NCBI RefSeq assembly: GCF_021442385.1
Contig: NZ_MUZA01000006.1
Location: forward strand, 62,001 to 126,000
DNA length: 64,000 nucleotides
DNA from: Micromonospora sp. MH99
GTDB taxonomy: Bacteria > Actinomycetota > Actinomycetes > Mycobacteriales > Micromonosporaceae
Direction: 5' to 3'
Shown: positions 42,673-46,765 of the stretch, in pieces
Position numbering within the stretch: the stretch's first letter is position 1
Layout: each line of letters starts with the position of its first letter
Translations under genes and position numbers: made by a program
Notes under the pieces: model-generated
Told to the model about the DNA's origin: nothing
What the model saw: only the letters and a program-made list of their open reading frames with translations
Database searches by the model: none

Positions 42673-43200
42673 TTATCGCCACTGTTCGTCCCTCGTGCGG
42701 ACGACAAGCACCAGCAGGATGGTGCCGACGGCGGCGAGGAGGAGCCCGACCGGAGGGATCGTCCAGGACATCAGGAACGACAGCGAGCCATCGGTGTGCC
42801 CGTTTGCCGCCACGAACGTGCCAGGTGCGTCCGGGTCCACCCACACGTCCATCCTCGGACCGGGAGTCCGGTGGCAGCCGGTGCCGCCTGCGCAGGGGAT
42901 CCAGGTGCTGTACGACCTCGACTCGTAGAGGTAGGAGACCTCGATCCGGTCGACACCGCTGCCCCGTCCCTGGCCGCCGGCCCGATCGGAGACGTAGGCC
43001 GTGACCCGAACGCCCTCGGCCCGCAGACGGTCCGCCTCCGACGACACGCGCCAGCGGTAGGCGACCGCGCCGACAACGAGGCCCACACCTACTAGCAGCA
43101 CGGGCAGCGCGGTCAGCAGCACGCGCGTGCGCGGACGCAGACCGGTCGGAGCGGGTGGCGGCGACTGACGCCGTCGTCTGGTCATCCGGCCATCGTCCAT
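42673..43200 (-). CDS. DUF3592-like membrane protein
   Basis: 175-aa protein with one N-terminal helix (about 30-50) and one C-terminal helix (about 145-168) flanking an extracellular beta domain (GVRVTAYVSDRAGG, VDRIEVSYLYESRSYSTWIPC, MDVWVDPDAPGTFVA), matching DUF3592. Start ATG 43200 or ATG 43185. Confidence 0.75.
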   Translation of the reverse strand: MDDGRMTRRRRQSPPPAPTGLRPRTRVLLTALPVLLVGVGLVVGAVAYRWRVSSEADRLRAEGVRVTAYVSDRAGGQGRGSGVDRIEVSYLYESRSYSTWIPCAGGTGCHRTPGPRMDVWVDPDAPGTFVAANGHTDGSLSFLMSWTIPPVGLLLAAVGTILLVLVVRTRDEQWR

Positions 43201-43262: not shown

Positions 43263-43766
43263 CTACAGGCAGATCCAGCAGTAGAGGTGCTTCCCGTTCG
43301 TGCGCGCTCGTCGGGCCAGTCCAACGAACTCCCGCAAGCGCGACAGCATGACCTCCGGTCCCGTGTCGCTGTAGTGGGACAGCTCCTCGATGCGTGACCA
43401 CTGCTCGGCCAGGCTCGGCAAGCGGTCATCCGGAATCTCCGCAAGCACGTCCCGGGTGCGATCGCTCAACGCGACGACCCACGGTCCTTCGTACTCACGG
43501 TCCTCGGCAGCACCGCTCGGCCAGATGAGCCGCTCCCCGACAAGGTTGGGCTCCCACGGCACGTCGAGGGCGAACGAGACGACCTGGCCGAGGACGACGG
43601 GCGGATCGATCCCCTTGCCGTCCACCGCATCCTCGACGGAAGAATCTCCCTCGCACACCACCGGGCCGCCGTCGGTGACGGCCATCAGCTTCGCGACGGC
43701 CTCGTCGTCAGAAGCGCGGAAGTAGTCGTACAGCACACCCACGAACGCCTCCCGATCGGCTGACAC
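43263..43766 (-). CDS. Hypothetical protein
   Basis: 167-aa acidic cytoplasmic protein (EAFVGVLYDYFRASDDEAVAKLM near the N-terminus, HLYCWICL at the very end). No family recognised with confidence; composition and length are like small accessory or immunity-type proteins. The GTG start at 43766 is uncertain. Lies just outside the tRNA-bounded segment. Confidence 0.55.
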   Translation of the reverse strand: MSADREAFVGVLYDYFRASDDEAVAKLMAVTDGGPVVCEGDSSVEDAVDGKGIDPPVVLGQVVSFALDVPWEPNLVGERLIWPSGAAEDREYEGPWVVALSDRTRDVLAEIPDDRLPSLAEQWSRIEELSHYSDTGPEVMLSRLREFVGLARRARTNGKHLYCWICL

Positions 43767-43933
43767 GTCACCATCTGTGGGGCGACCGGGAGAACGTACA
43801 CGCGGGCTACGCCAATGTGCCGACTGACCGAGTCGACGCTGCCGCCCCGCGCTGAAGACCACATCGCTCGCCGGACGTGACCTGAACGGCCCATCGTCCG
43901 AACCCACCAAGACCACGGGCAGCATGATGGCTC

Positions 43934-43979
43934 GGGTGCGCCCGGCAGGATTCGAACCTGCGGCGTTGTCATGAGAAGG
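43934..43979 (-). repeat. Partial duplicate of tRNA-Arg 3' end (putative att site)
   Basis: 43934-43964 is identical over 31 bp to 45836-45866, covering the T arm, acceptor 3' strand and three bases beyond the tRNA-Arg gene. Similarity continues imperfectly through the anticodon region to about 43979. The 5' half of the tRNA is missing. Same orientation as the intact tRNA, as expected for attL/attR of an element inserted at the tRNA 3' end. Confidence 0.85.
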
Positions 43980-44018
43980 ACATCGCGGATGGTGGTGCGG
44001 CATGCAGGAGGGGCGGCA

Positions 44019-44279
44019 ATGACCGAGGACGACAACCGCCCGCTGAAGCGGGTCGACAGCCTGGACGACCTGGTTACCTGGCTGCGGTGGATAGCTGACG
44101 ATGTCGCTCGCGATCCGGACACGGTCGAGAACATGACCACAGACCGCTACCTGGAGGCCTGCGCGGCGTACCTCCAGGACCGAAGCCGCCTGCAGAAGCG
44201 TGCCGGCCAACCTCTCCCGGCGCAACCGACCTGGCAACTCCTCGCGGACGCCCTGCACGCTGGATGCTTCTACGAGTAG
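44019..44279 (+). CDS. DUF7660-like small protein
   Basis: 86-aa protein. VENMTTDRYLEACAAYLQD and PTWQLLADALHAGCFYE match the pattern of DUF7660 (ENxTLxxYLEA...W, ending YE). ATG 44019 after AGGAGGGG. Function unknown. First gene inside the tRNA-bounded segment. Confidence 0.7.
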   Translation: MTEDDNRPLKRVDSLDDLVTWLRWIADDVARDPDTVENMTTDRYLEACAAYLQDRSRLQKRAGQPLPAQPTWQLLADALHAGCFYE

Positions 44280-44314
44280 GCCGCTACGCCTTTCGCCGCA
44301 GACGAACGGAGTCG

Positions 44315-44701
44315 TCAGAGCTGCTGGACGATCTGGATCGGGTTGCCGTCCGGGTCGGCCGTCCACGCGATCAGCAGGCGGTCGAGCCACCGGTGCGGTG
44401 CGGCCAGGGCGGGGGCGCCGTTCGCCGTGAGGGCCGCGTACGCGCCAGCGGTGTCGTCGGTCCAGAGGATCACCGCGGCCCGCTGCCCCTGTGGTACGGG
44501 GTCGAGTCCGTGATCGTCGCGAGTGGAGGCCACCGAGGCGATACCGATCTTGTAGCCGTCGAGCGCCAGGTCGATGTGGATCGGCTCGCCCTCGGTCGGC
44601 ACCCGGAAGGTCTCGGTGAAACCGAGGCCGGCGTAGAATTCGGCGGCGCGAGGGACGTCCTCGCTGAAGAGGATCACCTGCGGAGTCCGGAACATCGACA
44701 C
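44315..44701 (-). CDS. VOC family protein
   Basis: 128-aa glyoxalase/bleomycin-resistance-like protein (VILFSEDVPRAAEFYAGLGF, DPDGNPIQIVQQL). Substrate unknown. GTG 44701 preceded by TAGCGT and 6 nt; an ATG two codons on is the alternative. Within the tRNA-bounded segment. Confidence 0.85.
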   Translation of the reverse strand: MSMFRTPQVILFSEDVPRAAEFYAGLGFTETFRVPTEGEPIHIDLALDGYKIGIASVASTRDDHGLDPVPQGQRAAVILWTDDTAGAYAALTANGAPALAAPHRWLDRLLIAWTADPDGNPIQIVQQL

Positions 44702-44707
44702 GCGACG

Positions 44708-44713
44708 ACGCTA
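44708..44713 (-). promoter_or_regulatory. -10 TAGCGT, leaderless start at 44701
   Basis: Minus-strand TAGCGT, 6 nt, then GTG. Confidence 0.6.
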
Positions 44714-44881
44714 TCAGCGTGGGTTTCGGCCGATCCGCGTCAGCGCCCCGTCCTGGTCGGGTCGAGCAGATCAGCCAGTCGGTACCGCGACGCCGCAGGG
44801 GTGGCGGATCGCATATCGGAAGGTGAAACCGCTGCATTCGTGACTTCACCCCGTCGTTCTCGGTGGCAGCGCCGTACGTCC

Positions 44882-45766
44882 TCAGCGCGTCATGTGCGGA
44901 CGCCGTGCGCGAAGGAACGCCGTGGCCATCGTGCGCCGCGTTGGCGTGCCGGCCGCAGCCAGAGCGGTCATGTACGTGTCGAGACGCTCGCGTTCGTCGT
45001 CGGTCAGGGCGGCGGCGATCGCTTCGCCGTACGTGGGGACCAGCGGGTTGGGCGCCACGCGCTTGAGTGTTTCCCAGTCCCCGATCGGGTCGGCGGGCAC
45101 GTCGACCTGGGCGCGGTAGTCCAGTTCCACCGCCTCGAAGCCGGCCGCCAACGCCCAGTCGACGAGATTCCGCTCGTCGAAGTCCATCATCGGTCGGGTG
45201 GTTTCCGCGGTGGTGCTCCGGTGGAAATCGCTGACCTTGGCGACCACGTCGTTGACGGGCGAGTCGCCCAAGCCGAACAGATCATCGGGCCGGAGCCGCT
45301 CCGCGAAGCCGTTGATCGGCTCGAACAGGGAGATCCGTCCGCCCGGCCGCAGGACCCGGAAGAACTCCGCGAAGGCGGCGGCCTTGCGATCGGAGTAGAT
45401 GAGCACCGACCGAAGGGTCACGACGTCGACAGAGGCGTCAGCGATTCCGACGAGATCATCGGCCGACGCGACCACGAAGCTGCACCGCCCGTCCCCACCG
45501 GCGGTACGCCGGCACTCGTCGAGCACATCCAGCGAGACATCGCTGAAGATGACGTGACCGTCCGGGCCGAGCCGATCCAGCGCGCCGAAACCGATCAGCC
45601 CCGTCCCGCAGCCCACGTCGAGGACCACGTCGTCGGCCGCCAGGCCAGCTCCCTCAAGGACGCCGTCCCGGAACGCCGCCAGATCCAGGGCGTTGCGGGC
45701 GCGCAGGCCTGCGCTGTCGCCGTCCCGGCGGGTCAAGAGCCACTGGGCCCACTTGTCCCTCGCCAC
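44882..45766 (-). CDS. Class I SAM-dependent methyltransferase
   Basis: 294-aa methyltransferase: motif I VVLDVGCGTGLIGFGA (about residue 48), motif II acidic VIFSDVS (about 72), VVTLRSVLIYSDRK, FFRVLRPGGRISLFEP (post-motif III). Substrate unknown; similar to small-molecule or quinone-type methyltransferases. GTG 45766 leaderless with TACGCT. Last gene before the tRNA. Confidence 0.88.
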   Translation of the reverse strand: MARDKWAQWLLTRRDGDSAGLRARNALDLAAFRDGVLEGAGLAADDVVLDVGCGTGLIGFGALDRLGPDGHVIFSDVSLDVLDECRRTAGGDGRCSFVVASADDLVGIADASVDVVTLRSVLIYSDRKAAAFAEFFRVLRPGGRISLFEPINGFAERLRPDDLFGLGDSPVNDVVAKVSDFHRSTTAETTRPMMDFDERNLVDWALAAGFEAVELDYRAQVDVPADPIGDWETLKRVAPNPLVPTYGEAIAAALTDDERERLDTYMTALAAAGTPTRRTMATAFLRARRPHMTR

Positions 45767-45772
45767 CGGGTC

Positions 45773-45778
45773 AGCGTA
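45773..45778 (-). promoter_or_regulatory. -10 TACGCT, leaderless methyltransferase start
   Basis: Minus-strand TACGCT, 6 nt, then GTG 45766. Confidence 0.55.
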
Positions 45779-45838
45779 ACCCCCGATGCATTGTGGCCCG
45801 ATCGGCGCAGGCGAGCCGCTGACCTGTGGTGGTAAGGG

Positions 45839-45911
45839 TGCGCCCGGCAGGATTCGAACCTGCGGCCTTGGGATTAGAAGTCCCCTGCTCTATCCGCTGA
45901 GCTACGGGCGC
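45839..45911 (-). tRNA. tRNA-Arg (anticodon TCT)
   Basis: 73-nt tRNA on the minus strand. Acceptor GCGCCCG pairs with CGGGCGC, D arm GCTC/GAGC, anticodon loop CTTCTAA (TCT, reads AGA), T arm GCAGG-TTCGAAT-CCTGC, discriminator A. CCA is not encoded (CCC follows). Its 3' end is the boundary of the duplicated segment. Confidence 0.97.
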
Positions 45912-46057
45912 GCGGTGTGGATGTCGCGCCCAGAGGGTACCGCCGTCCGGCTGCCCGACGACGAAAAGGGTGCCCGCGTCCACGTTGCCGAGCAGGGTCT
46001 CACGGAGCCTCCCCGCCTGGCATCCGGGTTCCCGCCGAATGGCCATGCGTCGGCCCG

Positions 46058-46063
46058 TACCCT
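46058..46063 (+). promoter_or_regulatory. -10 TACCCT, leaderless start at 46070
   Basis: TACCCT, 6 nt, then GTG. Confidence 0.5.
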
Positions 46064-46069
46064 CGGCTG

Positions 46070-46765
46070 GTGTTGCTGGACCCCGACGCCGAGAGCGGCG
46101 TCGCCTACGAGCTGTGCCAGGTCGTCGGCCGCGCCATCCTGCCGTACCGGACGGCCGACGCCTACGGCACCGCCTTCTTCTTCCAGGACGGCGACGACCC
46201 GGTGGGGGAGGCGCTGCTGACGGCGGCCGACCTCGTCGGCCCTGCGGGCGGGGAGCTGGGCCTGCGGGGAAGCGTCACCGAGCCGGCCGGCGTCGCCCCG
46301 GACGTCATCGCGGAGGGCGCGATCGTGCCCGGTTGGGCGCGCTTTCCGAGCGACGGCGTCGCGGTGCTGCCGACCGCTGGCCTGCACCGGTACGCCGGCG
46401 ACGGCGGCTGGCGGTGGCGCGTGCAGCCGGTGCCGGCGGGGATCGCCGCCGGGCCCGAGGCCGTCGCCCGCCTCGGCGCCGACGGCAGTTCCGCTTTCGT
46501 GCTGGCCCATGGGGTACGCGAGGACGCCTCGCGCCCCCTGGAGGTGGGGATCGAGCGCGTGGTCCGCGACGGGGACGACGTGCGGATCACCACGGAACTG
46601 CCGTCGGGGTACGTCGGTGCGCCCGTCTTCGTCGTGCAGGCCGACGCCACCGGCGACGTCTCGCTGTACTGCCTGGGCCTGGTGCTGCCCGGCGTCGACG
46701 GTCACCCGGTGGCGACCTTCGACCGGATCCGGGCCGTCCTCCCGGCCACGCCCGGCGACGCCTGA
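46070..46765 (+). CDS. Trypsin-like-fold protein, apparently inactive
   Basis: 231-aa soluble protein. Beta-rich; GRAILPYRTADAYGTAFFFQDG resembles the first barrel of S1-like peptidases, and ELPSGYVGAPVFVVQA occupies the place of the GxSGxP active-site segment, with Val where the Ser would be. No signal peptide. If the reading is right, it is a non-catalytic relative of cytoplasmic trypsin-like proteins. GTG 46070 with TACCCT is preferred; the open frame continues upstream into the tRNA region. Confidence 0.55.
   Translation: MLLDPDAESGVAYELCQVVGRAILPYRTADAYGTAFFFQDGDDPVGEALLTAADLVGPAGGELGLRGSVTEPAGVAPDVIAEGAIVPGWARFPSDGVAVLPTAGLHRYAGDGGWRWRVQPVPAGIAAGPEAVARLGADGSSAFVLAHGVREDASRPLEVGIERVVRDGDDVRITTELPSGYVGAPVFVVQADATGDVSLYCLGLVLPGVDGHPVATFDRIRAVLPATPGDA

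Follow-up and report, generated by a model that had tools for sequence, protein, structure and literature searches.

Probable decayed remains of an AICE at the tRNA-Arg(TCT) gene of Micromonospora sp. MH99

A partial copy of a tRNA gene that lies in the same orientation as the intact gene, with three protein genes and no integrase between the two, raises the question of whether the segment is what an integrative element left behind or was assembled in some other way. Such a segment is found in Micromonospora sp. MH99, in the 64,000-nucleotide stretch of contig NZ_MUZA01000006.1 that was analysed here as a whole (the window). At a probability of about 0.87, the segment is considered to be the decayed remains of an actinomycete integrative and conjugative element (AICE) inserted at tRNA-Arg(TCT) (Table 1). 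An AICE with a tyrosine integrase would have inserted at the anticodon loop of this gene, restoring the 3' half of the tRNA from its own attP and leaving a 44-bp copy at the far end. Later deletions would have taken the integrase together with the replication and transfer genes, and the attR with its arm, the adjacent DUF7660 gene, and ∼26 bp of integrase-side arm beside the tRNA would have remained. The genes for a VOC protein and a methyltransferase, both seen elsewhere without these ends, would then have come to lie in the gap. We infer this order of integration with an anticodon-loop crossover, internal deletion, and arrival of the last two genes from the comparisons described below.

Table 1. 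Coordinates of the features of the segment (window positions) and of a prophage-like run in a relative.
Feature	Position	Strand	Evidence or remark
attR-like repeat of the first 44 bases of tRNA-Arg(TCT), numbered from its 3' end	43935-43978	minus	40/44 identical
Left arm adjoining the copy	43979-43992	plus	12/14 vs family arm seen in 16/87 relatives
DUF7660 protein, 86 aa	44019-44279	plus	PF24693, E 1.6e-13
VOC/glyoxalase-like protein, 128 aa	44315-44701	minus	PF00903, E 1.7e-9
Class-I methyltransferase, 294 aa	44882-45766	minus	PF13649, E 3.6e-17
Right (integrase-side) arm adjoining the tRNA	45811-45836	plus	first 20 bases 17/20 vs family consensus
tRNA-Arg(TCT)	45837-45911	minus	ARAGORN; target gene, with the putative attL side in its 3' part
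Prophage-like run parts, G024	contig C6: 164049-164092, 168169-168242, 168286-169623, 198327-198365

The tRNA gene, its partial copy, and the locus across the genus

The tRNA-Arg(TCT) gene is the only tRNA gene found in the window by ARAGORN, and its 3' end is, as had been originally predicted, duplicated exactly over 31 bp at 43934-43964 in the same orientation; the distance is 1902 bp. Compared with tRNA positions 45837-45880, the copy carries mismatches at bases 31, 35, 36, and 39 from the 3' end, and the similarity ends at base 44, the edge of the anticodon loop. The two 3' ends flank the segment as direct repeats. When the genome itself was searched with the tRNA (E ≤ 1e-8), more than 81% identity was reached by tRNA-Arg(TCT) (100%) and the copy (91%) alone. 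One mismatch (base 39) falls within the anticodon loop and the other three lie near it, which makes present-day excision doubtful and suggests that the relic is now immobile.

For comparison, the locus was oriented by the gene to the right of the tRNA (45917-46765, labelled RF1 here), and up to 20 kb around RF1 was taken from 87 genomes of the genus, comprising 37 near relatives, 40 more found by RF1 match, and 10 chosen for att-like matches. Places fetched for the methyltransferase (L076-L078) or for DUF7660 (L110 and L127) were left out of the 87, as were L118 and L120-L126, which lack an RF1 gene match and so either represent another locus or cannot be oriented. On the left side, most of the 37 near regions remain syntenic as far as ∼41.69 kb of the window, and the two relatives closest to it, G119 and G044, as far as 42.66 kb; from there to the tRNA the sequence varies. 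In 30 of the 87 regions, the 3' part of the tRNA recurs at least once to the left of the gene, in the same orientation and 542-17280 bp away (20/77 for att copies once the ten regions preselected for att-like matches are removed); no copy was found in 57/87 within the stretch fetched, which in some cases was ended by the end of a contig. Such copies in relatives stop at base 44 or 45 in 28 of 34 cases.

As the alternative, the original prediction had named an old tandem tRNA duplication in which one 5' half has decayed, since weak similarity extends into the anticodon arm. The similarity nevertheless stops at the anticodon loop, both here and in most relatives' copies, without continuing into the tRNA 5' half, and what comes next is a family-specific arm followed by the DUF7660 gene rather than the remains of a decaying 5' half. 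A tandem duplication was accordingly rejected and retains almost no probability.

Element arms, intact AICEs, and a series of truncated integrases

The AICE remnant reading is carried further by the sequences that adjoin the copy and the tRNA. An arm common to one element family, AAGATCGCGGATGGCTG, stands behind the att copy in 16/87 regions (at least 13/17 matching), and the window sequence in the same place is GACATCGCGGATGG, for which no equally good place exists on the plus strand of the window. On the other side, a consensus for the integrase-side arm was built from 19 regions with an integrase of this AICE family, and no plus-strand position of the window other than 45811 scores as well against it. 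Both arms match those of the intact AICEs of the family that occupy the same tRNA in G124 (L057) and G085 (L113).

The right arm, taken alone, is the weaker evidence, because scores of 17-19/20 were also obtained in 7 of the 54 remaining regions without listed integrase evidence, and part of the arm could thus be ordinary tRNA trailer; short integrase scraps are nevertheless found in L042 and L048, which belong to these seven. The segment might then combine two scars of independent origin: on the left an attR relic with DUF7660, on the right a tRNA trailer that only resembles an arm, and in the middle VOC and methyltransferase as ordinary genes of the chromosome. Relatives do have a VOC gene to the left of the tRNA where no att-bounded element is present. 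However, unrelated sequence occupies the right-arm place in the 14 relatives whose tRNA-side integrase belongs to other families (4-9/20) and in many other regions, which argues that the trailer is not simply conserved, and two independent scars are regarded as unlikely.

Against the reading as an AICE remnant, the left-arm motif is also present far from tRNA-Arg in several genomes. Half of the core followed by the arm motif (GGGATTAGAAGAAGATCGCGGATGGCTGG, up to two mismatches) was found in 24/300 genomes of the bacterial family, at loci (L110, L123, L126, and L170-L188) that are often distant from tRNA-Arg(TCT) and lack the T-arm part of the core; this may be an end common to elements with other targets, or these may be secondary-site insertions. 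L186 belongs to another genus (G267); there, 11.5 kb separate the arm motif, in matching orientation, from a tRNA-Arg(TCT), with integrase-like similarity between the two, an arrangement that may reflect a hot spot reaching beyond the genus.

Larger islands with a tyrosine integrase at the same tRNA, which the original prediction had proposed to look for, were found in relatives. The elements of G124 and G085 measure 10.8 and 10.9 kb, are each bounded by a tRNA copy and the tRNA, and encode a 378-aa tyrosine integrase (PF00589) next to the tRNA, RepSA (PF20199, E ∼1e-103), and a protein with an FtsK/SpoIIIE domain (PF01580); judged by sequence, both are AICES of one family. The end of the copy at base 44, the two arms, and these intact elements together support the predicted attL/attR geometry of a tRNA-targeted element.

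Between the intact elements and the window lies a graded series of truncated integrases. Pieces of the family integrase (at least 70% identity and within 260 bp of the tRNA) adjoin the tRNA in 23/87 regions, and all but two are incomplete: one starts at residue 25 (L111, open frame of 332 aa), and the others begin at residues 135, 171, 187, 188, 222, and so on, down to the last 20 residues. The copy and its arm are also retained in 14 of these 23 regions. The tRNA-proximal end of the integrase outlasts the rest of the gene, as would be expected if the tRNA must be kept; similarly, in another family with the integrase on the other strand, only the tRNA-proximal N-terminal part is left in L040, L044, and L063. 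The window, with both arms and no integrase, would represent one step further in this series. A longer form of this very element was absent from all 87 regions.

The segment was predicted to contain no integrase, and none of the tested families has left one there. When the segment was compared with proteins from relatives, ten from AICEs and five further integrases, nothing matched at E ≤ 1e-3 except the repeated core read as protein, and remnants of integrases of four other families did not rise above chance in the window. A G124 ORF (p6991) that matched the window at E 7.7e-4 was discarded as a gene remnant, as the match is the repeated core. An AICE is marked by one att-bounded element with a site-specific integrase, a replication initiator, and an FtsK-type transfer protein; the segment contains no counterpart to this combination. 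Relatives keep remnants of int, rep, or tra genes belonging to the element, and the window has none.

A separate arrangement was seen at L124 (G087 contig C4), where a full 44-bp tRNA-Arg copy and the family arm precede Tra and Rep genes that belong to the AICE family, and an integrase that is only 50-63% like the family integrase; this may be an AICE whose integrase has been exchanged.

Genes within and beside the segment

The three genes of the segment were confirmed by their domains as the DUF7660-like, VOC, and methyltransferase genes originally predicted, and they differ in their links to the element. The DUF7660 gene probably starts at 44019, where it is preceded by AGGAGG (the mechanical ORF start is 43971), and matches covering the gene occur in at least 5 of 159 other genomes (93, 90, 72, 71, and 69% DNA identity among the matches listed). 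In G084, the gene with 93% identity stands elsewhere in the genome behind the same arm motif (24/27, versus 15-17 in shuffles), and DUF7660 was for this reason probably original cargo of the element. No arm above chance was found beside DUF7660 in G078 and three other genomes within the loci examined.

The VOC gene lies left of the tRNA in 12/87 relatives, and in all four regions that hold both VOC and an att copy (L052, L053, L062, and L063) it is outside the att-bounded part, to the left of the copy. The methyltransferase, whose homologous stretch covers 44861-45791, is found at this site in one region of 87 (G122, inverted) and otherwise at different places in the genome. No linkage of the methyltransferase to the inside of the same AICE family was found in L076-L078, where it occupies other chromosomal places and AICE genes appear only in L077, ∼5 kb off. 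The inverted methyltransferase of G122 (L075, 16837-17719) adjoins the same tRNA, and its flank sequence also occurs at the methyltransferase place in G134.

Joint travel of VOC and DUF7660 was rejected by their distributions. The outcome that would have spoken against an insertion, three genes shared by all relatives, was not seen: DUF7660, VOC, and methyltransferase occur together in none of the 87 fetched regions. With the distributions of VOC and methyltransferase separate and unlinked to the AICE family, the cargo is not one unit, and these two genes probably joined later than the element. The segment would then be composed of an attR with DUF7660, a VOC gene, a methyltransferase gene, and an arm with the tRNA, pieces that differ in origin and whose order of arrival we infer. 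The original prediction of an integrase-less element remnant is thus supported with two amendments: of the deletion relic and the element mobilised in trans that it offered, the deletion relic is the best supported, mobilisation in trans being at most hypothetical, and the cargo as a single unit was not upheld, only DUF7660 being linked to the element family elsewhere.

The proteins encoded at 43263-43883 and 42673-43200, to the left of the segment, belong to no family in Pfam or NCBIfam. The former, left of the att copy, also has homologues in the variable zone of L052, L053, and L068, and in two of these three relatives the homologue directly adjoins VOC, with the order reversed relative to the window.

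Known systems and other elements at this tRNA

The segment resembles pSAM2-type AICEs (integrase, RepSA, and FtsK-type Tra, at tRNA genes) in its type of target and in the direct repeats of the tRNA 3' end, and differs from them in having no integrase, replication, or transfer genes. Integration of AICEs at tRNA-Arg is mentioned in parts of one report for Streptomyces avermitilis (tandem AICEs) and for a Frankia element with three repeats (PMC3218068). Sections of a study of a Streptomyces population describe AICEs of several families accreted at one tRNA-Arg, a trace element without traB between direct repeats at the same tRNA-Arg, and, at another site, partial integrases and cargo between repeats along with an empty site (PMC9513070). 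From the decayed AICEs in those sections, the window differs in genus and in having no integrase piece left (PMC9513070). Accretion and decay of AICEs, including at tRNA-Arg, are therefore already published for Streptomyces, and the window is a clear further example; no description of this Micromonospora site was recognised in the open-licence literature searched. The window segment alone changes no concept; its value is as a further well-bounded case in the long series of AICE decay at a single tRNA in ∼ninety species of one genus, and this series could serve to measure which parts of an AICE go first and whether leftover att sites get reused.

In its sequence, the segment also fits the definition of a CIME (cis-mobilisable element) as worded in part of the source that describes decay followed by accretion (PMC5704250), in that attL and attR are both retained and the genes for integration and transfer are lost; it shares this with the CIMEs in excerpts of a further source (PMC8369830). 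A CIME would still move, or would have moved without an integrase, carried along by a related AICE that inserts beside it and takes both out on excision, and tandem copies at this tRNA do occur in L057, L112, L128, and L142 (two att copies each). The two cores of the window nevertheless differ at 4/44 positions, one within the anticodon loop, one core having decayed, which makes mobilisation in cis by a related ICE doubtful, and the cargo genes travel together in none of the 87 regions; movement as a CIME is thus considered very unlikely. A more speculative idea, to which only a small probability is given, is that the ends of decaying AICEs act as a gene trap, where local genes such as VOC and methyltransferase gather between recognisable att sites after the integrase is lost and a later AICE carries them off in cis.

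The comparison with an empty site that the original prediction had proposed came out in its favour. G044 carries a 2.3-kb element between two 44-45-bp repeats that G119 lacks, and the alignment of the two genomes is interrupted and picked up again at the tRNA, with 44 bp of overlap and 92-93% identity on both sides. The pair shows insertion at this tRNA, but by another family than that of the window element.

In G024 (L197/L071, contig C6), the 5' side of the same tRNA-Arg is occupied by a prophage-like run of ∼30 kb, with terminase, portal/head, tape measure, and integrase genes according to PHROGs. The intact tRNA is followed by the integrase and the phage genes, and next to RF1 stand 39 bp (bases 37-75) duplicated from the tRNA 5' half. 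This element thus duplicates the 5' half of the tRNA, with a polarity opposite to that of the AICEs and a break at the same anticodon loop; duplication of the 5' half is the uncommon polarity.
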